From contig FN648655.1 in NCBI GenBank assembly GCA_000310025.1, forward strand, positions 25,914-89,913: 64,000 nt of DNA, written 5' to 3'. Numbering within the stretch: position 1 is the first letter of the stretch; every line of letters starts with the position of its first letter. The stretch is from Ectocarpus siliculosus (lineage: Eukaryota; Sar; Phaeophyceae; Ectocarpales; Ectocarpaceae). Below are positions 21,441 to 62,250 of this stretch, piece after piece. A program made the translations under genes and the position numbers. A model generated the notes under the pieces. It was given only the letters and a program-made list of their open reading frames with translations. It was not told the DNA's origin and did no database searches.

Positions 21441-22060
21441 GGGTGGTCATGATGTATGCGACCGCACACCACACGCATATCTTATCACGCCGCAGCATGC
21501 TGCTAACCTTCGGTTCGGCTCCGCTCATGATGCCACGAAGGACGGAATGGGCCTCGAAGGTATGTGGGATCGTCCGCGCGAGCTTGTGACACCGAGCATG
21601 CGATCTCCACGACGTCTTGCGCCAGGAGCCTCCGCACCATCACCACTTGCGCGAAAGTGAAGGGAACACCGCGAAAGAAAAAGTAAGGGGGGAGTCGGTT
21701 TGCGCGGGCGTGCACGAGGCCCCCAGTTGCACCGCATTGCACCGCAAAGGCAGCAGACAGCAGACAGGCAGACAGGCCCCGCGCTGCGCGGGAGGAAGCT
21801 CCCGCGGGTTATACGTCTTCTGACTGTTGGAGAGGGACGCACTTCCCCGGGCTCATCTTGGGTGCCTGTTGCTGGACTGCCATTGTCGGGTGAGGCGTGT
21901 TCGCTGCACTTTGGTAAGCAGCACTCCACGACTACGTTGTACCTGTACAATAGAGAGATGGACATGCTGTTGCGGTGGGCGAAAGTCGAGGTCCAATGAC
22001 AAAACAGCGTCCCGTCTGGATGTACCCCTTGTGTCAATATCGGGGACTTTCTGAACCCAC

Positions 22061-22719
22061 CTCACCCTCGACAGAGTAAGAGCGACTTGCATCAGGAACG
22101 CCACGAACAGAACGCACTTCCCGGACTTGTTGCTGATTTCTTCGGGGATGCCTTGGTCCCAGGCGTAGAAAACGTGCCAGGTTGTGCCATCGGGACCACT
22201 CTGACGGCGTTTGTTCAGGTAGTAACTGGACCCGCACTCTCGACAAGTCTTGACATAGTGCCGCATAGGGTAGCACCCGTTCACCCCATAAAACGCCGAT
22301 TGGAGAAATGTCACTGTCATGGCTACGTCGTCGCAAGACTCATTCTGGCAGAACACTCCAGCATACTGCACCGATCTCGCTACAAATCCTGCAGCAGCTT
22401 GCGAACCGTTGGGAAGAGATCTCTGATACGCCGCGAATACGTCCCCTACGCCCCCCCCATTGTCACACAAGTCGACTAGGGCCTGGTACTGCGCTACGGA
22501 CAAGTCATGCTGTGCCCGGAAAGATGCTGCTGCTGCCCTACTCATGGTCAGGCTTGTCGGGTTGTTATTGACGTCTCGACGTAGATTGGATTGCTGCTGA
22601 CACGCAACGACCAGAACCAATATGTCTAGAGTGGGCGTGCCATGAAACAAACCACCCTCCTGAAGAAGGATATCCGCCAGGTTGAAAAAACTCATGTCTG
22701 GATGAAGTCCGGGGGGCAC
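22061..22719 (-). pseudogene. Possible Cys-containing exon of a KDZ-like transposase
   Basis: The minus strand is open across this segment and ends in a good donor (GGTGAG/GTGGGT at 22061). The peptide contains an LSVAQYQALVDLCDNGG region, VFCQNESCDD, then YVKTCRECGSSYYL (a C-x2-C pair) and EEISNKSGKCVLFVAFL near the end. Cysteine clusters followed by a hydrophobic helix occur in N-terminal parts of KDZ-family transposases. That comparison is from memory and is weak. No catalytic exons like those at 38.5-40.1 or 59.0-60.0 kb are found downstream, so it is at best a fragment. The 345-codon plus-strand frame at 22642-23679 shows no domain. Confidence 0.3.
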
Positions 22720-24415
22720 AACACCGGCTGCGGCGTGCCAACAGAGGCGAGGTTGACGACGGGCATGTGCGAAGCGAATGTTGGATTGTTTGGCGAGGTT
22801 TGGGCCAACAAAACGTGCGTGGCGTGCGTGTCGAATGTTGAGCTAGACAGGGTTAAGCTGATCAGACACCCTCCGAGTGTTGTGCATGTCGACGACGGCA
22901 ACCTGTTGGTAGCGTGCACGTGGAGGGCGTGTGCGTCAGTCAATTTGTGGACTACGAGGTACGGCGAGGAGGCACTGACGCCGGGCGCCTGCGGCACCGT
23001 CGCCAGTTTTTTTTTTTTTTATTGGAAGAAGCATCTACAGGCTGGTGTGCAGGCTGGTGTGTACGAAACTCGAGCGCAAAAGCTGCGACGGTGCGGCTGG
23101 TTGGGGTGCACTCCCTCGGGACGAGACCGGCCAACGTGCAACACGCGAGGCACGTTTCAAACAGATCAAGTTTCACGTCGCGTTCGACGTTCAGCTTGCG
23201 ATACTCCTAACCCTGTATTGCCGCTACTGGCCGCTACAACCCCCCCAATCAGAGTCGGCTTCACTGCCATCTGCAACGTCTACAACGATACAGTCTTGCG
23301 TGATCGAGGGCACGGATCGCCGCCGCTGGCGGTTGACACGCTCCTGGAGTGTTGGTCGCTCCTGGCGACTCTGAAAATGGCGCAAGGCGTAGGTGCGTAT
23401 CTGCATTGCATTGTCGCGGGCGTGGCCATCACAACACTGCTGGGATACGCATGCCAGTACCCGTCTCGACTGTTTCACAGCGTAGAGCACTCGCTGTGTT
23501 GGCGGATAGACGGTGGTGCCGTGTTGGTGTACCTTGTTGGCATCCGAATGAAACGGGACCACCAAACGTGGCTAGTTTTGGTTGTCCATCGCACTCGAAG
23601 CTGTTTTCCCTTTGCTTCGCCATCGTTGGATGATGCTCATTGCACACTATTCCCTGTTTTCCGTATTGCTGCAGCTTGACTGCGCTCCCCTGACTTCCTT
23701 GTGCGATTTATTGCGACAAAGGTCCCTGGCTAACCTTCCTGCCGGAAGGGTTGACCCTTGTCGTGGGGAACCCACGGTTGGTATGGGTCCGAGACATCGA
23801 CGGGGAACAAAGCGGGGCAAATCATTGGAAGGGTCTCCGTGAGTTGACGGCGGATCAAAACGAGGGTTTCTGGGAGAACGTGGCTTGGCACAGACACAGC
23901 TGCGACCTCTGCCGCCCTGCTGTGCGGTGCATGAGTGCCCCCATGATCTGCCCAACCTCAGTGGGGCCAGGTGGGGAGTACGAAATCGGGTACGTCGCCG
24001 ATTTGCGAGTGTACGTCATGAATACATACCTAACAGGTACTCCGAAATTCCCGGTTGCGCTTCGCGCGATGCTGTTGGTAGGGCGACGTATTTCAGACAT
24101 GTATCGGTGGTTTACTGTCGCTCATGAGCTCCGTTACGCGCTTCGGCGGTAAGCAGTTTATCTTTTGACGGTTGCAGCAAGTCCAACACTAGGCTAAGTA
24201 AGTTGTTAAACTGTATCGTTTCATACGTTTCGTGTTATCTGTGTTCCCTTAGCTGCGTTCACTGTTTTTTTTTTTCCGCTTTCCGAGTTTCCGAAATTCC
24301 TTCTTTCCACATTTCACCGCCTTGCCTTGGTGGTGAAAGACAGAAACGTGGAGAAAAGGTCCGCCGCACACGTAGATCATATGCATACCATTTGGGTTGG
24401 CCACAGAGGAGGACC

Positions 24416-31425: not shown

Positions 31426-31950
31426 TGTCTGCCTGTCGTTGGTGTTGGTCTGACTATGTTGTGCTGCTTTCGCTTTCGCGTGCGAGGAAGCGTGGGTTGG
31501 TGGATGTATTCCTCGTGGAGAGCAAGGTTAGGGGATGGTGCCTGATTGTTTATGTGCCTTAATCAGTAGGGAAAGGCTTAGCAGTTGGAGTAGTAGCGAT
31601 GGGAATGCTGTTGCGTTTTCTTTTAGACATTGGCGCCGATTGTAGGCGTGAAGGGTTAAGGTTCTTATCGGGCGGGGAGTCAACGGACGAAAAAAATTGG
31701 AGGAGGTTACGGTGTTCGCCATTGCCACGGGGGTTTAGAGTATGATGTTCGGGGGGGGTGCGGGCTTGTGTCAGTGTGTCAGCGAGAGCGTTGGCGAGAG
31801 GGCTGCTTACCTTGAGGGGAAGGTGCGCATGGTACTGTAGGTCGTTGGTCCGAGATTTATACTTTGCCCAAATAGTTTTTTTTCCTTGTCTTTTTTTTCG
31901 GTATCTAAGTAAGTGCGTGCCGTAGGACATGTAATACCTTCGGTATTCTA

Positions 31951-32222
31951 GGGGGGGGGAGGAGCGGGGGGGGGGGGGGGCTGTGTTTTTTCCCGGCCCG
32001 TTTAAATAAGGGTTCCCCCCGGGGCGGCAAGACCTGCCNNNNNNNNNNNNNNNNNNNNNNNNNNNNNNNNNNNNNNNNNNNNNNNNNNNNNNNNNNNNNN
32101 NNNNNNNNNNNNNNNNNNNNNNNNNNNNNNNNNNNNNNGGGTGGAGGGGGGGGGGGGGGGGCGTAGGTTTAAGCGCAGGCCTGTTGAACTAAGGTTTCCT
32201 CCGTGAGCGGCAAGACGTGCGC
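31951..32222. repeat. Duplicated G-run segment around an assembly gap
   Basis: Left of the gap the order is G-run, GGCCCGTTTAAATAAGGGTT, CCCC-rich piece, GCGGCAAGACCTGCC. Right of the gap it is G-run, GGCCTGTTGAACTAAGGTTT, then GCGGCAAGACGTGCGC. The two sides are diverged copies of one another. The gap probably hides more copies. Confidence 0.65.
32039..32138. other. Assembly gap (100 N)
   Basis: Exactly 100 N, bordered by G homopolymers and a repeat. True length unknown. Confidence 0.99.
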
Positions 32223-36305: not shown

Positions 36306-37922
36306 GAAGGCAGCGGCGTCTCGTCGGGCGGAGGAAATCTTGTTCGCGCCTGCATTGCGGCACACCCCGATCGTTGTAGACGCGAGCACATATTAGCAAT
36401 GTCGGTAGTTACGTTGCACAGTTCAATCAAATTCAACACAATGTAGGTGGGCTTACACGCAACGTTCGTCATGAATTATCTTCATGTTTCGCAACAGATA
36501 ACACATTGTAATGGTTGGTCGTTGTTCAACTTCGGGCAGGAAGGGAGCGTGCACTCTGGGGCCTACTTTTCGAATAAAAAAAATAAAAATATCGCTGCGC
36601 TGTCCGCACATCGGCAAAGGTGCACCAGCCTCAGTTACGTCAGCGCAATAAGCTGCCGATTACGTGAACACATTCTACATACCTAGATTTTGGCTCGCCG
36701 CGAGAGCGGTGTTCAATTGTAGTGTAGATGTGCTGTGCTCAGACATGCGGCTACGACTACGTACTTTTGCTCTTGGTACCAACAGGCAGTTGCTGACCCG
36801 AGAACGTCCTGGCGGCGGCAGTTCGTGGAAGTGCGATACTGATACAGTACCACAGAGTACACAGCAGTTCAGCGTTACAAAACGTTGGGATATCCATAAT
36901 AGTACAGCAGTGCTCCGTGTAAAGCAGTGCTCCTTCTTGGAAGTGCCCGTAGAGTGCGCGCGCTAGTGTAGCTGTGTGTCTTCCGCGAGAGAGGGCTGCT
37001 GCTGTTGCTGCTGCTGAACGAGTACACGTGTACCGCTGGAAAGGGTGAGGCGTATTTTGCGTCATACATAGCCTGGGTTACGTAGGCATATTGCATGCGG
37101 CGGTACCGAGCGAATCGAAAAGACGCATTGACGTTTCTCGCTCTTTATCTACCTATTGCTGTTGGTCCTATTTAGTTACGCACAGCGGGTCTTTCTGTCG
37201 TGTATCTTATCTATGTCATGCCTCAAGCCCTGGCAAAGCACCGTGTACTGCTGTAGCGTCCATCCTGCGACGTTCCATAGGTACGAACACTCCATGGTAC
37301 AAAACAGCGGGGCATACTTTGGGCAGTCCGGCAGGGGGAGGTCAAAGCAGTCAACATCGGCTGCCCACTCTTGCGCTAGGGCTAGTCGGCGTACAGAAAC
37401 CAGCTCGGTGCTGGTGGTGCAGGGCTATGCACACGGCGGGGCTACTGGTTAGGTAGGAAAGGTTTCTCGAAAAATACAACAACCTTCCCGCCGCGTAGAA
37501 GCATATAACACACCTCTTGCTTTCTTCCACCGTCCCCGGCACCCTGTCAACCTCCTGTGTTGGTTGTCCTAGCCGTAGCTTACGCGTGTCCTCGTCTCGG
37601 TACCGGGTAGGCTCTGTGGCTTAGTCTTGCTCTCCGCTTCGGAGAGGGAAGGAGGGGGGGGGGGTAGAAAAGCATATTTTCTAGAAACACAGAAACCTGT
37701 TTTTTTTTTTGTGAAAGGACTTTTATGCCACTCTCCTTGAACGGTGTATACCCTGTTATTCGCACGTCTGACGTATAGGCGTGCATGCATGCCTCGAACG
37801 CCGTCTTTTATGTCGACTACTAGAGCCTGCACTTCCCAGCACTTGCATCCTGCGAATTAAGCCCCCATCCTTGCCGTCGCAACCGACACTGCCGCCCCCG
37901 CCTGTTGTCTAACAAACCAAAG
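36306..37922. other. Stretch between the two transposase genes
   Basis: The 5' part of the plus-strand KDZ-like gene should lie here, but I cannot identify its N-terminal exons. It contains one TACTGCTGTA near 37248 and CTG-rich pieces at 36990-37020. No other gene recognised. Confidence 0.4.
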
Positions 37923-40120
37923 GTTTTGCGAGCACCACGCTCCTATCTACGAACATCGCTGCGCCGTTACCTCCCCCGAGTGCCTCAACGACCATGAGGA
38001 TGGGAGCTTGGCCTGCGCAGAACACGCTGACATGGAAAGGCGGTGGAAAGTTTTCAACAACTTCGGAGACTACCGGCGCAAGCAAAGGATGCGGGCTGCT
38101 GGCATCGAAGTGGAGGTATGTCCAGCGTACGCCCTTACTGGTACACAACTTATATAATCTGTTGGTGTTTGTGATGTTTTCAACCAGCAGGGCGTTTGTC
38201 TGTCTATCGGGCGTGTGTCTGTCTATCGGCGTGCCATCGCGTTCGAGGAACCTATGACTCGCCCCAAAAAGGTTTGCCTTTCCTTTCGTGAATAGCGGCC
38301 TCGAGTCCGACGGCGGTAGTACATGCGTACATGCGTACAACCCTGAACCTGGTAGAATATGTTGAACGGCACAGAGAGTTTGCATGACCTGAACCTGGTC
38401 AAATATGTTGAACGGCAAAGAGAATTTGCATGTTGTGTCCATCCCTGCTTGTGCTGAAGCGCCGATTACTGAACGTCTCGTTCCACTCGAAAAACAACAC
38501 TTTGTTTTGACCCGTCGATATTCCCTGTTGCTGCCTGTCCACCCAGCCTGACGACATCAAACTCTTGCGAGTGATGTTTTCAAGGCACAACTCATACGGT
38601 CATCTGGTGGGCACCCTCAACTGCGGTATTATTTCGGGAAACTCTGTTCGTGCAGCTCACGAGGGCATGGAGTGCGTGTGCGCGACCTTGGATCCAATGT
38701 GGCCTGACCCTCTCTCCAGGCCTGGAATCCTGTTTTACGACCTCGCGTGCCGGCTCCTGGAATACCGCCTCTGGCACCCTCACCTGGGCTGGCTGATGTG
38801 TCGCTACATCGTGGACAGGTTGTTATATGTAACTGCTAGTTCCCTTTTTTCCCGTGCCACCGATGACGTGTCTACTCGTTTTGCTGAGCTCCAGGTAGGG
38901 GACCAATACCAATAGCGGTTGTGTTGTACCTCCGTAGTCGGTCATTGCTACTTCACGTGGGGCTTGCCTGTCATGTTTTGTGACCGCTTATCAACCTGTT
39001 CGCGAACCGGGTCCTAGCCCAACCGCTGCATCTGACCGCGACCTACACGGCGACCTACAAGTACCACTGCTAACGTTTCCCTTGCCGCTTTCGTGTGTTC
39101 CGCCAACCCCTTTTGTCATGGTCATTGATCTTCAGCTTCCTCTTGCTGTGGCGTCCTCAAGATTCCACTTCCGTTCTCACAATGAGGTACGAGTGACATT
39201 TCCTTCTACAGTGAACGCGTGGGAAACAATGTTCCAACTTTACTTTGACTACCGTAAGTATAGGATGTGCGGACGCCTTCGAAAAGTCCTGGTCAGATTC
39301 TTATTGCAAAGGCGGAAAGTCAATTAAATATTTGGAACTCGCTTTTCTCCGCGCACCCTGTGCGGAGACCCCGACCGAAATGTCCGGGGACCCCGATGCT
39401 TACGGTAGCTAACCTTGCTTCGCCACGCCGTCATGTAACTTCGATTGCCTCGTGCCCTGGGACTCGTGTTGCGATATACTGTGACAGATTAACTGCGCTA
39501 TCTTCAATTCGCCGGAGGCCCGCGACGATGCCACGCTCTGGCGGACAAGCCCCGAAGGACAGGAAGAATTTCGGTGGAACTCAAGTCGGGCGAAAAGCAG
39601 CAACAGCTGGCTTGAAGGTAGAGCGTCAAAATGTACATGTGTGCTCACCCGCCCTCCTGTCTTTTGTGTTGACCCCGAAAAAAGAGTTCACTTTATATAA
39701 TTCTTGGTTCACTTTTATAACAGTTAGTTCACTTTTGTAACAAGTGATTCTCACTTTCATGACAGAGACTTGGCGTTTCCCTGGCGACGGCACAACAGGG
39801 TGTTTTCATTAATGCGAGACAGCACACACGAAACGTCCAGGGTATACATGTTCTTGTGCGATCTGGTCTGTCTCTTGTCTTCCGACTGTCTTGCCAACAT
39901 GCACGCCCACACCATCAAAATACCGATTTTTGCGCCCACGTCGTGTTTTTGTTTTTTTTTGCTGCCATGCTTTTCCCCTGCTTTTCTAGGCTTTGGGGTC
40001 GTCGTCAAACAGATGCCTCAAGTGCTGAGGGGCTTCTTCCTCAACCACGCCATCCTTGTTCGGAATGAGACCCTTCTCAGGTCCAAACTGATGAGCCAGC
40101 ACCCTAACTTCGATGGTTGA
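37923..40120 (+). CDS. KDZ-like transposase, spliced 3' part (copy B)
   Basis: Five exons with matching phases: 37923-38115, 38547-38818, 39162-39186, 39488-39617 and 39990-40120 (stop TGA). Exon 1 is a Cys/His cluster (RFCEHHAPIYEHRCAVTS, CLNDHEDGSLACAEHAD), probably zinc-binding. Exon 2 carries CGIISGNSV and ILFYDLACRLLEY and ends YIVDR. The tiny 25-bp exon adds FHFRSHNE, so the joined motif is VDRFHFRSHNE. Exon 4 has FRWNSSRAKSSNSWL, and exon 5 ends MSQHPNFDG. FYD-xAC, VDxFHxxxH and NSS-x-AE-xxN-xWL blocks are what I know of KDZ (Kyakuja-Dileera-Zisupton) transposases with CxC-type Cys clusters. The position that is Glu in copy C is Lys here (AAA, 39593-39595), so this copy is probably catalytically dead. 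Upstream exons are missing from my model. Confidence 0.62.
38342..38432. repeat. Tandem duplication in an intron of the KDZ-like gene
   Basis: Two units of about 48 bp share CCTGAACCTGGT.(A/G)AATATGTTGAACGGCA, AGAGA.TTTGCATG. They lie between exons 38115 and 38547. Confidence 0.75.
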
Positions 40121-54015: not shown

Positions 54016-54444
54016 ATGGACTTCGAAATTCACTGTTATAACAGTGAATCCATTTACACGATAATGTGGGAACCCCGGTTTGTTCTGCTCGCGCGACACA
54101 CTGCGGAGAGAGCACGCACCAACTCAAGAACAAATTAGCACATACTTTCGACGATAATCTACAACACCTCTTCGAGAACCGATACGGGACAATCGTCAAC
54201 ATCCACAAGCCTACATCCCCAAGAGGTTATGAGCCTCGGTTAGCGCTCTGGCACATCGTTCGAGGTCAAGTTCGAGGAAACGAGGATTCGGGACTCGTGA
54301 CAAGATCTAGAAGCAAGGAATACTTTCTGGATCTACGAGTTCTACGACGGAAATCAAGAACACGAGAAATTGGATCGGTTTGGCGGAGCTCCAGGATCCA
54401 ACAAGCAAGTACAAGCCCTCAAGCGCAGCAGCTGGTGTAACATC

Positions 54445-55260
54445 ATGGCAGAGTCCACCGGCAAGCTCACGTCGATCGTCAGAGGGATCCCGAAGTTCGA
54501 CGGGAATCCAAACAAGTATGAAGATTGGAAGGTCGACATCAAGACCGTTCTGGAATTATCTCGGCGGGACATGTTCGAGATATTGAATGGCGACTCCTCA
54601 AGACCGAAGGAGATCTATGCGCGGCGAGCCCGTGCATCAGGCACCATGGAAGCCCCGGTGCCCAGCGAGGAAGTCGCTGACGGGGACAGCAGCAAGGTTG
54701 TAGGAAGTCAAGAAAAATCATCAGCCAGCAGTGCGGCGACTGCTGTTGTGATACCAGGATGTACCGCGGATCGTGACAGTCCCGGGACAGGATCGCCGGA
54801 TCTTCAAGCGCGAGATTCGGAACAACCTGGACCACCTCAGAATCAACGTGAGATTGATGAATGGGAGCAGATCAACGCTCTACTATACAACGTCTTATTC
54901 CTGACTACCAGTGGAGACGCAAAGTATTTTATGCGTACATACGAGGCCAAGAAAGGAAGGAAGGCAGACGGGCTAGCAGGCTGGCTTGCGCTGGAGAACA
55001 AACATCAGAACAAGTCAACTCACAGGAGGCAACAACTCATGCCAAGACTTGCCAACTTCCGAATGGAAGAAGGATCCGATCCGGACACCTTCTTCAGGAA
55101 CATTGACCAGCTCGCCGAGCAGCTCGAGCTGGTAGGAGAGCATGTTTCGCGGCATAGAAAAATGGACACCATCATGAGGGGGATGCCCAGAGAGTGCGAG
55201 TCCATCAAGTTCCACGTCATGAGCAATCCAGCGTGGCCTCACCCAGATCCACGGCGCTAG
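54445..55260 (+). CDS. Gag of a second Ty1/copia lineage (truncated element)
   Basis: ATG 54445 opens a 271-residue protein. IVRGIPKFDGNPNKYEDWK at the start, LLYNVLFLTTSGDAKYF and GLAGWLALENKHQNKSTHRR in the middle, and RLANFRMEEGSDPDTFFRNI with MRGMPRECESIKFHVMSNP near the end are the hallmark blocks of copia Gag (UBN2-type capsid). A low-complexity insert (residues about 50-115) separates the first two blocks. The frame stops at 55260 within a 23-bp tandem duplication (CTCACCCAGATCCACGGCGC twice, 55238-55280). No zinc knuckle or pol follows, so the element is cut off. It is not close to the gag at 12300-13474. TGTTATAACAGTGAATCC at about 54033 might be the LTR start; the second LTR is not found. 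Confidence 0.8.
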   Translation: MAESTGKLTSIVRGIPKFDGNPNKYEDWKVDIKTVLELSRRDMFEILNGDSSRPKEIYARRARASGTMEAPVPSEEVADGDSSKVVGSQEKSSASSAATAVVIPGCTADRDSPGTGSPDLQARDSEQPGPPQNQREIDEWEQINALLYNVLFLTTSGDAKYFMRTYEAKKGRKADGLAGWLALENKHQNKSTHRRQQLMPRLANFRMEEGSDPDTFFRNIDQLAEQLELVGEHVSRHRKMDTIMRGMPRECESIKFHVMSNPAWPHPDPRR

Positions 55261-55489
55261 GCTCACCCAGATCCACGGCGCGACGCTGAGGGCGTTGTCG
55301 CATCTCCCGTGTTTCGTACAGTGCACACGCACGCCGAGGCCTTGGGCAGGTCTCTTCATTATACTTACTTGTTGCAGATTTAAACGGTACGGTGGGTTTA
55401 GTTGTTTTCAAAGCTCCAAGACGTGTCGTCTTTCCTTAGTCGGGACGAATAGGTCCCGTGGTGATTGATCATCATGAATACCCGTCGGC
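55261..55489. other. Short non-coding link
   Basis: No features beyond the end of the small duplication. Confidence 0.4.
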
Positions 55490-55750
55490 ACCCGTAGGGT
55501 GCTACACCACCAATACCAATGGATCGCTACCCACGGTTGTCACCACGGGTGCCTGTGGCTACCCACGGTGACGACCATGGGCTAGCGTTAGGCATCAGTT
55601 TGGGTGCCCATGGGTCACCATGTGTGTGGCCATGAGTCACCATGGGTACCCACGGGATAATTTCACTTGGTTATGTATGGGTACCCATGGGTACCCATGG
55701 ACATTGCCTATGGTGCCCGTGGGTACCCACGGGGTAATTTCACTTGGTTA
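55490..55750. repeat. GGGTACCCATGGGTACCC palindromic-word array
   Basis: The words GGTACC, CCATGG, CCCACGG and CCGTGGG alternate, as in ATGGGTACCCATGGGTACCC (about 55676-55698). An 18-bp segment GGTAATTTCACTTGGTTATG-like also recurs (about 55658 and 55735). It is the fourth word type of this kind in the window. Confidence 0.8.
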
Positions 55751-56390
55751 TGGGCGAATGTATCAAACATCTGCACCGAGACAAAGAAAAAAACGGAAAA
55801 CCCCGACGCAATGAAGAGGGCCGCGGGGCGGGAAAGCTTCGGGTATCGATTATGGTTTGAAACCCTTTTGTCACCTGAACGGGCACGCACGAATGCGTGT
55901 ATGCTGCCTCGGGGAGAGATAAATAAAGTAAGGAACAGAACGCCATTTGGCCTGCGGGTTCGCTTCGGCGACGATATGAAACCCGGTATGTCGTGACCAT
56001 CTCGCGTCCACGTGGTTGAAACCCCCTTACGCTTCTTGGGGCGGGGTCGCTTCTGCCGCGACCTGAATCCCTTACCCCTTGCTGTATATGCCCCATATTC
56101 GGAACTATTTGGCTCGGTCCTGAAGAACCACGAAGGAAACACTAACATACGTAATGACGCCACAAAAAACGATGTTGTGAAAAAATATATGAAGCCAAAC
56201 ACAGCACCATAGAAAATCCACGCTCGACACCTTCACCACGAACTCCGCATCGGGCATCGTAAAATACCGTCGTTACGCTGTGTACGACGCAACAAGGAAA
56301 AACGGTTTCGTCGGAACCAAGATATTGACAAGAAGTCGGAACCACGATGTTGACATACGCAGCACATATCGTCCCGAGAACAGACAACAC
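55751..56390. other. Stretch with no recognised gene
   Basis: Minus-strand frames (56202-55708 and 56096-55740) are open for 118-164 codons but show no domain, and each overlaps the other. Confidence 0.35.
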
Positions 56391-56392
56391 CC

Positions 56393-56436
56393 CTGTTAGA
56401 AAGTCTTACCCATTAGACTACTCAGTCAGCGCTGAC
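56393..56436 (-). repeat. tRNA-like 5' half (A-box piece)
   Basis: On the minus strand it reads AGCGCTGACTGAGTAGTCTA then ATGGGTAAGACTTTCTAACA. The same piece appears inverted at 56665-56705 and, diverged, at the start of the tRNA-like unit 56664-56593. Confidence 0.5.
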
Positions 56437-56592
56437 TTGCCGGATGGTCCAATTTTACCGATTAAAAGATATGCTCAGAGCTCGTTAGCACCCGGCCGGA
56501 TCACATGGGCTTGGGAATGAGTAGAGATCTCCGGGGCCGGACCCCTCGCCAGACGCCGCTGTTTGGTAAACAAATGGTGATTCTTGTGTAAG

Positions 56593-56664
56593 TGGACCAC
56601 TGGGATTCGAACCCGTGCGTGGAACCTTGGGTAAGAACGCTTTGACCATTAGACCACTGAGTCA
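56593..56664 (-). ncRNA. tRNA-like sequence (tRNA pseudogene or SINE head)
   Basis: On the minus strand an A-box-like TGGTCTAATGG is followed, at almost exactly tRNA spacing, by a B-box-like GGGTTCGAATCCC. These are the two internal Pol III promoter boxes. The acceptor stem does not pair (5' GACTCAG against 3' TGGTCCA), and the anticodon arm is unclear, so this is not a working tRNA. A 12-bp palindrome GTCAGCGCTGAC (56661-56672) joins it head to head with a second A-box piece (56665-56705, plus strand). Confidence 0.5.
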
Positions 56665-56929
56665 GCGCTGACTTAGTAGTCTAATGGGTAAGCCTTTCTA
56701 ACAAAAGATATACTCTCGGCTCGTTGCCATCCAGCTGGTCACTGTGATATTTACAAGTAGGGATCTCCGGGGACGGACCCCTTTTTTTTTTTTTTTGAGA
56801 AAGGCTACTCGGCCAGTGAGGGCCGAGATGGGAAAGTCTTGTATTAGAGGGAAGAGGGAACAGCAGAGAACACTAGAGAGCGAGGAACCGAAGAGAGTGC
56901 GTCACCACACCTATCCGTCACGCAATTCA

Positions 56930-58480
56930 GATCACTCATCGAATCTCCGAAGAAACCAAGCAGAAACTCCCTGTTCCTCCGCAATCTACCAACTGCAATC
57001 TCCGTAGATCCATGCCCCATATTCAACCACATTTACTATGCTACGAGTATATCTAACAGCCCCCCTGCTCGTATGCATCGTAATGATACGGCAAGTCAAT
57101 ATAATTCCATTTACTCCCCAAACGTAGATCCTACTCCTCCATGACACACAAATAACCAAGAACTCGATTATGCAAACGTTCCTGAACTCACAACGTCTTC
57201 TCTCATCGCCTTCATTCCTTCTCTGAAAAACGCTCTTCTGGTCCATCCTTTCTCAGTACTTCACCGCAACGACACCCGCAAAGTACTAATGTCCCCCGCA
57301 CAACCGAAGCATTAAACAATCCATCGAACCAAACCTATCTGTGACACTCGTCATTTCGTTCACTTTCGAAAACACGGATCAATTCGTAGAAATTCGCCTT
57401 CGTTGTGCTTCCAGTACATCCATCCATCCGTGTACAAAACCTACAAAGACAACACAAACTTTCGCACACAACAAACGTATTTGTTTCATGTTCCGCGCAA
57501 AAACAGAAGTAAGTATGAACATGCCCATAGTGCAGGTAAAACGCAGCTGGGTATGGTATGGATCCTTTTTTACTCTCACATTTCCGATCAAACAACATCC
57601 ATCCTCAAACATTCGTTCAGCGTGAAGATCATTTGCGCAGAAAATACGTGAGTATTCCTATTGTTTCTCTCTAGAAACCTAGTACCACCTACAGGTAAAT
57701 ACCTTCCGAAAGAACAACGCGCCCCCCTGCTCTGGGAGATTCGCCCCCGTGAGTTTAGAAGGGGTTGGAGTCTGAACCATAGAACAAAAGAACAACATTT
57801 AATGTTCATCCAGTCGAAACCCAAGAAAAACAATCCTCCTGCAAATAAATCCCGACGAACACCAAAACCAAATCAAATTCAATGCCAAAACATATAATCC
57901 AATCCAGTACCAAAACAGAACATTCGAAAACCCTTCAATTCAACACCAAAACAATCAACACCCGAAAATCCTCCAATTCAATACCAAAACAAAAACACTC
58001 GAAACCCCTACATTTGCCGGCCCATCAAGCTCCAGCGCTAACCCATTGCCCAAGCCATTGTTTCTCTCCCCCCAGCGGATATTTCGCACGCCTTCGCCGC
58101 GGTCGCCTTCCGTCTTTCATCTTTTCCGGCTGGCCGCGACTCGAGCTTGGATGTTTGCGTCCGCCTGAAGTGGGCGAAGAACTTTTGTCGTTCCCGGAGG
58201 ATTGACTCGGCGGTGGTGCAGGGCAGGTCGCGCGTTTGGAGGGGAAGATGGCGGCAGATTAGTTCCGAACAAACCAGCAATACTGAAGAGAATCACATAC
58301 TACCAACATTCCCCCCGGTTCTGCACAGTAGTGACTGCAGCAGAGAAAACAATGAATGAAATACACTTTCAAGTCGTCGGATCCTACTTGTGCAATGTTT
58401 GTCTGAAATTACCGATCACGGCGACATTGCCATTCAATACATAGATAGCTGAATATCATCCTGAAACGGAGGTTGATTAG
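56930..58480 (-). mobile_element. Fragment of the same LTR-element family
   Basis: 56930-57055 is a diverged LTR end finishing TATGCTACGAGTATATCTAACA, followed by GCCCCCCTGCTCGTATGCAT, the polypurine tract and interior seen at 7023 and 27157. The rest runs parallel to 27420-28110 of the young element: CCTTCCGAAAGAACAACG at 57705, ACATTTGCCGGCCCATCAA near 58010 and GGAGGTTGATTAGTCCTC near 58468. Neither a 5' LTR nor gag is seen. Confidence 0.75.
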
Positions 58481-59003
58481 TCCTCTATCACAAAATGATA
58501 ATTCAGCCGCTGCTCCTGTTCCAAACAAAGGGCAATCAATCCTAAGTCGAAACTTTCACACCCCCGCCAGGAAGGAAACCCATACCGGGAAACGTTGGCA
58601 ATTTACATTGTCAACCGTGCAATGGGACAAAAAAAAAAACGACAACAACGTCAACCCATTCTAGTAAACCCACTGTAGTAAGAAACGTCGCCGATCAAAG
58701 TGACATGACGCAGCTTGACAAGAGGAAGCAACCTAAACGGCTCGAATGTACGTAAAGCAGCCCCATTAGGCAGCGCGAATGGTGTAACCATAATCAAGTG
58801 CATCCTTCAGCCCATCACCCCAGGACATCTGTGCGGGTGGAATTCCTCTCTGCTAGGTAGAGAGCACCAGGGAACTCGGATCGGTAGGAATGTTGGCCCA
58901 CTCTCGACACACCGTAGGAGGACGAAAAAGATGGCAGCGGGAGCTGTGCGGTTCCTGACGTCTACAACCTTCCTTTCCGGATGTATGTGTTGTACGTGCT
59001 GCG
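58481..59003. other. Stretch before the KDZ-like gene end
   Basis: No gene recognised. A 110-codon plus frame (58715-59047) is antisense to the terminal exon of the KDZ-like gene and lacks features. Confidence 0.4.
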
Positions 59004-61176
59004 CTAACGGTCAAAGGTCGGGTGCTGGGACAACAGCTTTTTGGTGAGCAGGAGCTCGTTCTTGAAGCAGATGCTGTTGTCCAAGACGAAACGGTTCAGC
59101 ACCTTTGGTATGCGCATGAGTACATGTCGAAACCCTGGTCAGCAAGAGAGGCATGCGTTTCAGAACAAGTGTGGGTAGTTAACGTAGTTGGAGGTACTTA
59201 GCCTTAATGGATGAAACAACACGGATTACGAGTGAGACAGCGAGTAAAAGACATCAACGGGGGGCTGTAATGACGGTGTTAACCAGAAACTGCTATTGGT
59301 TCGACGCAGGGTGTATCTGACGCACCGCTTAGCCACCCGTTGTTGGACTCGGCGATGGAGGAGTTCCAGTAGAACTCGGGTGGGTCTTGCTGCAAGTTCC
59401 ACAGAAGAGGGTTGTTGTAGTCGTTTGGGTTGTTGAGGATAGAGCACGCAAGCTCCGTATGGCCCCGATAATGGAACCTGCCGGCGTCCACAGTAACGAT
59501 ATGCGCACAACACGGGTATTGGGTACGGCCGGGGTATGTGTTCGACGACGGTACTTCATTCCAAGTTGGAGTTCGGACACACTGTACACGTCACCCCCAA
59601 AGCCACGCAAACTACAATTTAGAACGCCCAACCTGCTGCTGTGAGCAACTTACTTACAGGGAGCACGCCCTACTTTAGGCCGAGGTGTACGTAGTCTCTC
59701 GCGTAGTCTCTCGTTGAATTGCCCCGGGTGCTTTGGAAACACAGGCCCACGTGTCACGTACCGGTCGACGATCAGCATCGTTCCAACCCAGGACAGATCC
59801 CCTCGGCCGCTCAGGTAGCGGTCCAGAACGCAGGCCTTGTCGTAAAAGAGGATGGTCGGGCGTCGATCCTCATCGGGAAAAATATGTTTCAGGGCCGCGT
59901 CCACATCGGCACATCCTTCCGCCTCCAAGAGGGGCACTATCCCGCAGATGATCCCGCAAGACCAGCTCGCGGAAAGACTCCCCCAGCTGCTCTTCCTTCC
60001 TAGAATTGCACGGAGCATCCTCATGTCCTCAGGCTATGTTGTCGGCACACACACGCACGCAGTGACAAGGGAGGTAGGGGTTTGTGATGGTGCCGATCAA
60101 TGTGGCTTAAATCCGGCTGCTCCCATGCGCGCCAGATTCGTTATTATACACTCGATACCGCCACGTTCAAAATAGGTTAAACCCGAAGCCTGCGGTGTCA
60201 GTGGGCTTCAATCGCAGGCCCTCCTACAGTGTATTCTTGGAGTACATGGTGATGTACACCCTCAACTGATGTTGGTGTGTGGACCTTCTGTCTCAAGTCC
60301 ATGCGGTGTGACAAAAAACGTTCGCGTCGTCTGCCGGACGCGTTCCGTCCTCGCCTGAGAACCCATGTCGGAGGGTTCATCCCGGCCGGAACGCGCCTAT
60401 TGTCCTGTAGCTGTGGTGGGGTTAGGAGTAGAGTGTAGGGTAAAATAACTTGCGCTGTTGAAGGAAATACGTTGAGGTGGGTATTTGTCGCCCGTGAAGC
60501 AGAGGGCAGTCGATGCAAAAGACACGGCGCTTGTGCGATAGTTTTTTAGATTGGAACGTGCACACATCACGTACGGGAGTACCTCTAACATTTGTTTTTG
60601 CTGAAGCAAAAACGGCACCCCTATCGGAGCGGTTTTCCATAAAAAAACTTCCAAAAATAAAGAACGCGAGGGGAAAGGAATAACAGTTATTGGGGTTCTG
60701 TAAAACGGGCCAGATGAAGGAAGAGGACCCCAAGCAGCTCTGTACCTTCGAAGAAGTCCAAAGACTCTTCTTTAGACTCACGACGAAACACGTACTTGAG
60801 AGGTAGTTGAGAAGCCCTCCCGAACCCTCTGGTGATGTAAAGACGATATCATGTCGGTAACCAATCACAGAGTATGCCACCGCCGCGATGGTTGTTTATG
60901 CAGAAACCCCACATCAAAAACGCTTCGTCGTAAATTGCTGTTTCGTCCTAAAGGCGGGTGGGCGTAGCATGCGTTGATTCTACGACACCTCCTGGTCCAA
61001 GAAGCGCGCTCGCTGTGCAGCAGTCCACGTAACCTCCCGGCTCCTTCTTCTCGTCCTCCTGTGCCTTGTGTGCTGTGCACGTTAGCCTGTTGTCCTCGCG
61101 ATTGTTTCCGCAGGGCGGTTGTGCGACCCAGAACGCGCATTTGTGCCCGTGTACAGCAGCGTGGTCCTCGCAGTAT
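59004..61176 (-). CDS. KDZ-like transposase, spliced 3' part (copy C)
   Basis: Minus-strand exons: about 61176-61034, 60033-59762, 59477-59326 and 59134-59004 (stop TAG). Exon 1 is a Cys/His cluster (YCEDHAAVHGHKCAFWVA, CGNNREDNRLTCTAHKAQED) aligning with that of copy B. Exon 2 (272 bp, the same length as in copy B) has CGIICGIV, ILFYDKACVLDRYL and ends LIVDR. Exon 3 gives FHYRGHTELACSILNN and EFYWNSSIAESNNGWLSG. The terminal exon (131 bp, as in copy B) ends LLSQHPTFDR. Joined motifs are FYD-K-AC, VDRFHYRGH and AESNNGWL, the probable acidic residues of a KDZ/RNase-H-fold transposase, all present (Glu at 59350-59348). The donor of exon 1 is uncertain by one phase. N-terminal exons are not identified. 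Confidence 0.62.
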
Positions 61177-61739
61177 CTGCCATTCAAAGATCACAAAAGA
61201 TCACGAAAAGACCTCGGCGTATCTTGATTATTGTTGCCTTCCTACGATACGCAGTTTGTGTTGGTTGTCGTTCGACTGGTCTCGCAGTGTATGGAAGACG
61301 TAGCTGGTTACGTTATGCATGCTGTTGGTGAGCCTCTGTGTCCCGAAAACCTCAGCCATCGATCTAGCGTTGTACAAGCGGCACGCCTTACTATCCCACA
61401 AAGCTAATCGACGGCGCAGCTGCCATCGTTTTTCCTCATACCGATACGTCGATTAACGCGTGTCTCAGCAAGCGTGATGAACTTGGGCATGACGCTACCA
61501 TTCAGGTAGCTTTAGCGACACGTATTGAACGTTGGTTGTGGTGATGATGCACGAATACGTGCAGCCTAGCGGCAAGGGCTTGGGACAGGGCTTCGGACGA
61601 GGGTTACACAGGTGGAGGTCGAACCCCCTTGGGGACTTTTCGGCAAGGGGGGGGGGGGGTCATCGGCAAGGTCGAGCCCCTGAAGAGTCCGTTGGGTTGT
61701 CCAACCTCCGTCCCTTCACCAACCTTGGCAACCCCTGAC
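61177..61739. other. Upstream flank of the KDZ-like gene
   Basis: The N-terminal exons of the minus-strand gene may lie here or beyond. I could not identify them. A G-run lies at 61648-61658. Confidence 0.35.
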
Positions 61740-62250
61740 AGAAGAACGGTTTGGCAAACTCATTGCCTAGGATGTGCTTGCCAAGCTCGTTCGCGTACGT
61801 GAGATTGGCAAGGCTAGTTATAGCCAGCGTGCGATTGGCGATTGGCAAGGTCGTTTTCGAACTTGAGATTGGCAAGGCTAGTGCGGGAACGTGTGATTGG
61901 CAAGGCTCATTGCCAACGATGTGCTTGGCAAGGTCGTTTTCGAACTTGAGATTGGCAAGGCTAGTTCGGGAACGTGCGATTGGCGATTGGCAAGGTCGTT
62001 TTCGAACTTGAGATTGGCAACGCTAGTTCGGGAACGTGTGATTGGCAAGGCTCATTGCCTACGATGTGCTTGCCAAGCTTGTTCGCGAACATGAGATTGG
62101 CAAGGCTAGTTCGCGAGCGTGCGATTGGCGATTGGCAAGCTTGTTCGCGAAAGTAGGATTGCAAGCTCGACCCGGATATTGGCAAGGCTCATTGCCTACC
62201 ATGTGTTTGGCAAGGCTAGTTCGCGAGCGTGAGATTGCCAAGGTGCTCTG
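61740..62250. repeat. GATTGGCAAGG tandem array
   Basis: GATTGGCAAGG or close variants occur about 14 times in 500 bp. They are arranged in a higher-order unit of roughly 115-145 bp: GGCTCATTGCC(A/T)ACGATGTG, CTTGCCAAGCT.GTTCGCG, GAGATTGGCAAGGCTAGTTC, GCGATTGGCGATTGGCAAGG, TCGTTTTCGAACTT. Overlapping open frames on both strands are artefacts. It is not CRISPR-like, since there are no unique spacers. Confidence 0.85.

Follow-up and report, generated by a model that had tools for sequence, protein, structure and literature searches.

In the Zisupton, Dileera and Kyakuja elements of fish and fungi, KDZ-linked cysteine clusters are found beside a DDE-type transposase. The available text on these elements describes an 8-bp target duplication for Zisupton, and one of 7 bp, together with CA..TG ends, for Kyakuja (PMC12730594). 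According to the available part of a survey of Ectocarpus, eight KDZ families are present there, the elements of which are generally longer than 10 kb and reach up to 30.3 kb, carry nested insertions that are fixed among the copies, and often have a pseudogenized transposase, so that movement in trans has been inferred (PMC12477816). Here, a window of 64,000 nucleotides of Ectocarpus siliculosus contig FN648655.1 was analysed, which contains two diverged KDZ-like genes, copy B on the plus strand and copy C on the minus strand. The results make it very probable that copy C is the dead and incomplete remnant of a large cut-and-paste DNA transposon of KDZ-like type, whose ancestors were under selection and whose recent burst was followed by neutral decay.

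The main coding part of copy C consists of three exons with GT-AG borders: an exon of 272 bp (59762..60033) with the first and second putative catalytic D, an exon of 152 bp (59326..59477) with the putative catalytic E, and a final exon of 131 bp, stop codon included (59004..59134). We take the D of ILFYDKAC, the D of IVDRFHY and the E of SIAESNN to be the putative catalytic triad of a DDE transposase. The three-exon frame is open, the splice signals are intact and the putative triad is present. Upstream, a cysteine-cluster (CxC6-like) exon, now frame-shifted, was located at 60951..61176 (3' border approximate), the outer border of the region pointed out in the initial annotation, 61176, being the start of this exon. 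The intron at 59478-59761 contains a 12-base stretch that reads as a tandem duplication and is absent from the 29 other aligned copies.

Copy B consists of exons of 272 bp (38547..38818), 25 bp (39162..39186) and 130 bp (39488..39617) and a final exon of 131 bp including the stop codon (39990..40120), all with GT-AG borders, preceded by a CxC6-like cysteine-cluster exon at 37915..38154 (borders approximate; CxC6 score below the Pfam cut-off). The exon-by-exon correspondence proposed initially was thus borne out, with 272, 152 and 131 bp in copy C facing 272, 25 + 130 and 131 bp in copy B, which has one more intron. The last exon is preceded by 424 bases in copy C and by 427 in copy B and is therefore in equal phase, and the proteins share the same C-terminal end, SQHPTFDR in copy C and SQHPNFDG in copy B. 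The proteins have indeed drifted, although somewhat further than the "roughly half" identity first estimated: 80 of 184 aligned codons encode identical residues (43%), with a single one-residue gap. The alignment score was 384, compared with −62.5 ± 14 (highest, −12) in 300 shuffles. Both D residues lie in motifs common to the two copies; the reading of the putative triad as intact would hold for copy C, whereas the residue of copy B aligned with the putative catalytic E is K.

The C family is likely to belong to KDZ, an assignment drawn from the combination of three KDZ-linked profile models, each of which scored below its cut-off, and from the motifs described above. CxC6 matched the cysteine exons of copy C (E-value, 0.0027) and copy B (E-value, 9.6e-05), both below the curated cut-off; its score of 18.4 bits, against a cut-off of 27.5, was not raised (17.5 bits) when the upstream exon of another copy was added to the cysteine exon, and the upstream exon alone gave no match. 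The KDZ model matched spliced copy C with an E-value of 0.099 (12.8 bits, cut-off 26.6), and CxC5 matched a minus-strand ORF at 21853-22842 (E-value, 3.3e-04, below cut-off), which may be the N-terminal part of a further KDZ copy. Spliced copy B, and the KDZ exons of copies C and B scanned singly, had no Pfam match. The copy C cysteine exon also matches zf-AN1 weakly (E-value, 0.048). A search of the whole genome with the KDZ model returned nothing, as it did in 14 control genomes, which shows only that this search was blind. The C family is like Zisupton, Dileera and Kyakuja in having a putative KDZ-linked cysteine cluster next to a putative DDE-type transposase, with profile scores that here stay under the cut-offs. 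Its transposon-like behaviour is independent of the KDZ name.

In order to find relatives, the genome (189 Mb, 492 contigs) was searched with the reading frame of 127 residues that covers the first exon of copy C. At least 89 matches were obtained. Besides the window, at least 32 places encode the main exon of copy C at 92–100% identity over at least 107 of the 127 residues (33 places with copy C itself), at least 32 further matches, copy B included, show 35–48% identity, and the other 24 are shorter pieces of the 92–100% kind. A search for relatives in viral contigs found none. For comparison at the DNA level, 20 copies (L031–L050) were taken with 10 kb each; all of them match copy C, and 18 run across the site of a nested insertion in copy C. 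In 13 of the 14 copies, out of the 20, in which the 3' end was displayed, the family sequence ends in ...GGGCACGAATAACGATAGTGTATATGATTG, in some cases with one or a few bases changed, and is followed by unrelated flanks; the fourteenth copy, L044, ends a few bases before this shared terminus. With up to three mismatches allowed, the last 30 bases were found 37 times in the genome, and not once in a reversed control. The 3' end finishes in TG, like the CA..TG ends given for Kyakuja in the available description (PMC12730594).

The 5' end of the element lies upstream of the DNA compared (10 kb per copy). Comparison of the 37 terminal-sequence matches with the first-exon matches revealed no recognisable 5' partner of the 3' terminus, and neither terminal inverted repeats nor a target duplication belonging to the element were seen in the DNA compared. 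Beyond 61606, the 5' border of copy C, family sequence continues in 18 of the 20 copies, the exceptions being L038 and L041. When L045:1-1300, which is the furthest upstream of the DNA compared, was used as a probe, 46 stretches in the genome matched, and therefore the element, nested insertions counted, exceeds 9 kb. A candidate terminal inverted repeat at 54025-54077 of the window, with an inverted match at the break of L038, was considered as an element end and dropped, because this stretch adjoins the L038 break, precedes the KDZ part of L041 by about 0.4 kb and stands beside a Copia-type gag ORF in the window; it was taken for part of another repeat.

Two ORFs on the strand opposite the transposase are seen at L046:288-1802: one with FNIP repeats (E-value, 8.9e-20), which lies within DNA common to L043 and partly to L045, and one that was read by eye as tyrosine-recombinase-like, a reading for which a Pfam scan gave no support. 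Among the best 150 of 155 matches to the latter ORF, 22 of the 30 copies L001–L030 have one on the opposite strand, 3.5–6.2 kb upstream, and the remaining eight have none. Relatives with an identical score (E-value, 9.2e-104) occur at 11 places that, when the matches listed were compared by hand, had no first-exon match within 10 kb; this suggests that a nested element is also spreading alone. One could picture the amplified unit as a composite giant element that carries a KDZ-type DDE transposase, a tyrosine-recombinase-like enzyme and, as cargo, the FNIP-repeat ORF, with the second enzyme aiding movement, but we consider this very unlikely. Somewhat less probable still is a mobile unit moved by the recombinase-like protein itself, with the KDZ gene as a passenger: the frequent upstream position of this ORF and the separate spread of its relatives would agree with it, but the ORF is without Pfam support, eight of 30 copies have no match among those listed, and the separate spread fits a nested element that has become fixed in the KDZ family, as is described for the giant elements of Ectocarpus generally in the available text of that survey (PMC12477816).

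The C family is the product of a recent burst. Its copies differ on average by 2.9% in pairwise comparison, with a maximum of 4.9%, and they form a star-like tree in which terminal branches account for 77% of the total length. Within the exon region, L026 has the same sequence as L027, and L028 the same as L029; three of the four copies are on contigs of 11–12 kb, and each pair may therefore represent one copy assembled twice. That the copies as a whole were made by segmental or assembly duplication instead of by transposition is nevertheless an explanation to which we give very little weight, since a common terminus stands next to unrelated flanks, the copies are spread over many large contigs, and they show the divergence and the star-like tree given above.

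Thirty copies spanning the three exons, the two identical pairs included, were aligned for an analysis of selection. Pairwise differences averaged 2.04, 2.43 and 2.33% at the first, second and third codon positions, respectively, and 3.81% in the introns. The ratio pN/pS was 1.11 among the 30 copies and 1.52 among the 20 that were left after removal of 10 with exon indels; for singleton changes it was 0.84, and for shared changes 1.30. The three-exon frame is broken in 17 of the 30 copies (eight premature stops, eight frame-shifts and one lost stop) and is kept to the normal stop in 13, two of which have lost a splice site. All six distinct exon gaps in the family shift the frame. Equal differences at the three codon positions and a pN/pS of about 1.1 mean that no selection is visible since the burst, and the present copies are thus decaying neutrally. 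The higher divergence of introns (3.8%) than of exons (2.0–2.4%) can reflect some constraint on the exons before or during the burst. The initial annotation had counted neutral change with random indels among the paralogs, or a lack of transposon termini and of homologs in related genomes, against its reading; the former is what the C family displays, whereas a sharp 3' terminus does exist.

Two of the exon changes are each shared by several copies. In eight of the 30 copies (L004, L005, L009, L010, L015, L016, L023 and L030), a TGG to TGA change makes codon 117 of the three-exon stretch a stop, and six (L024–L029) share one gap of 2 bp in the first exon. The carriers of both are scattered over the tree, which may be due to recurrent change, to exchange between copies or to old polymorphism.

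As regards selection, the lineages joining copies B and C differ from the present copies. Over the 184 codons, the differences between copies B and C at codon positions 1, 2 and 3 were 0.446, 0.408 and 0.652, respectively, and the sole gap is in-frame, whereas among the copies of the C family these exons contain six frame-shifting gaps per 107 substitutions. At this rate more than ten gaps would be expected between copies B and C, so the single in-frame gap argues for long constraint on the ancestors. The claim that a spliced KDZ-like transposase had been under long purifying selection therefore holds for these lineages: the codon pattern indicates selection such as a transposase that has to stay functional requires, and a function for the host is unnecessary to account for it. 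The exon lengths of the two copies agree because intron places are common to both and hardly any indels have been retained, and the intron positions are older than the split between B and C. Conserved exon structure between transposon families thus records selection on active ancestors and is silent about any individual copy.

Copy C itself is heavily damaged. DNA matches to the family divide it into two surviving segments on the minus strand, the first at 58558..61606 (by comparison with L031–L050) and the second at 55229..56393. Between them lies a nested insertion of 2164 bp (56394..58557), a length in which one of the two ACACCCC repeats of a 7-bp target duplication, read by eye, is counted. 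The border of this insertion is visible in 18 of the 20 copies, and the uninterrupted site was displayed for L031 and L034. The first 44 bp of the insertion form an arm that is repeated in inverted orientation at 56660-56703, and a 0.62-kb part of it is also found directly past the 3' end of the L046 copy. The frame of the cysteine-cluster exon is shifted by a 5-bp deletion private to copy C, which is absent from all 17 copies covering the place among the 20 compared. Neither the final 0.3 kb of the family sequence nor the 3' terminus is present in the window. A Copia-type gag fragment (Retrotran_gag_2; E-value, 3.8e-11) occupies 54301-55260, where the C element stops.

On the 5' side, 16 of the 20 copies have an upstream transposase exon that covers at least 141 of 155 residues, two have 33 residues of it, and two (L038 and L041) lack it. 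For copy C, no such exon was found before the end of the contig; the only clear match in the window is an exon with 37% identity at 23712-23915, far off. Window and contig both end 2.4 kb past 61606, and copy C may have been cut at this position or interrupted there by another insertion. A minisatellite of TTGGCAAGGCT-like units lies at 61759-62237, near the 5' border of the fragment. Scans of the window for Rfam families and for tRNAs found no matches.

Copy C is thus an ordinary dead copy and not a gene kept by the host, and the initial preference for domestication over a burst of recent copies was not upheld. That a transposase-derived protein was retained by the host under purifying selection is the least credible of the explanations considered: it would account for the open three-exon frame with its splice signals and putative triad and for the strong constraint between copies B and C, but it is contradicted by more than 30 near-identical dispersed copies, by a pN/pS of about 1, and by the frame-shift, the nested insertion and the absence of an upstream exon before the contig end in copy C.

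Under the preferred explanation, in which copy C is the dead remnant of a large KDZ-like transposon, the spliced transposase would combine a zinc-binding cysteine cluster at its N-terminus with a catalytic domain of the DDE type. Selection in autonomous lineages would have kept this transposase functional for a long time, so that families B and C still agree in intron positions and exon lengths. The C lineage would then have reached more than 30 places in a recent spread, and many copies, copy C among them, would since have decayed neutrally. Copies with a dead transposase may have moved in trans by means of the enzyme from better copies. The C family resembles the giant KDZ elements of Ectocarpus, as described in the available text (PMC12477816), in large size, many low-divergence copies, nested insertions, broken transposase and extra genes, the comparison being one with published descriptions. 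The C family could help to date bursts of giant elements in the brown-algal genome.

A run of undetermined bases, seen as X in an ORF, lies within 31559-32188. The exon at 23712-23915, which shares 37% identity with the upstream C-family exon, is located 14 kb upstream of copy B on the same strand, and copy B may belong to a very large, interrupted element.
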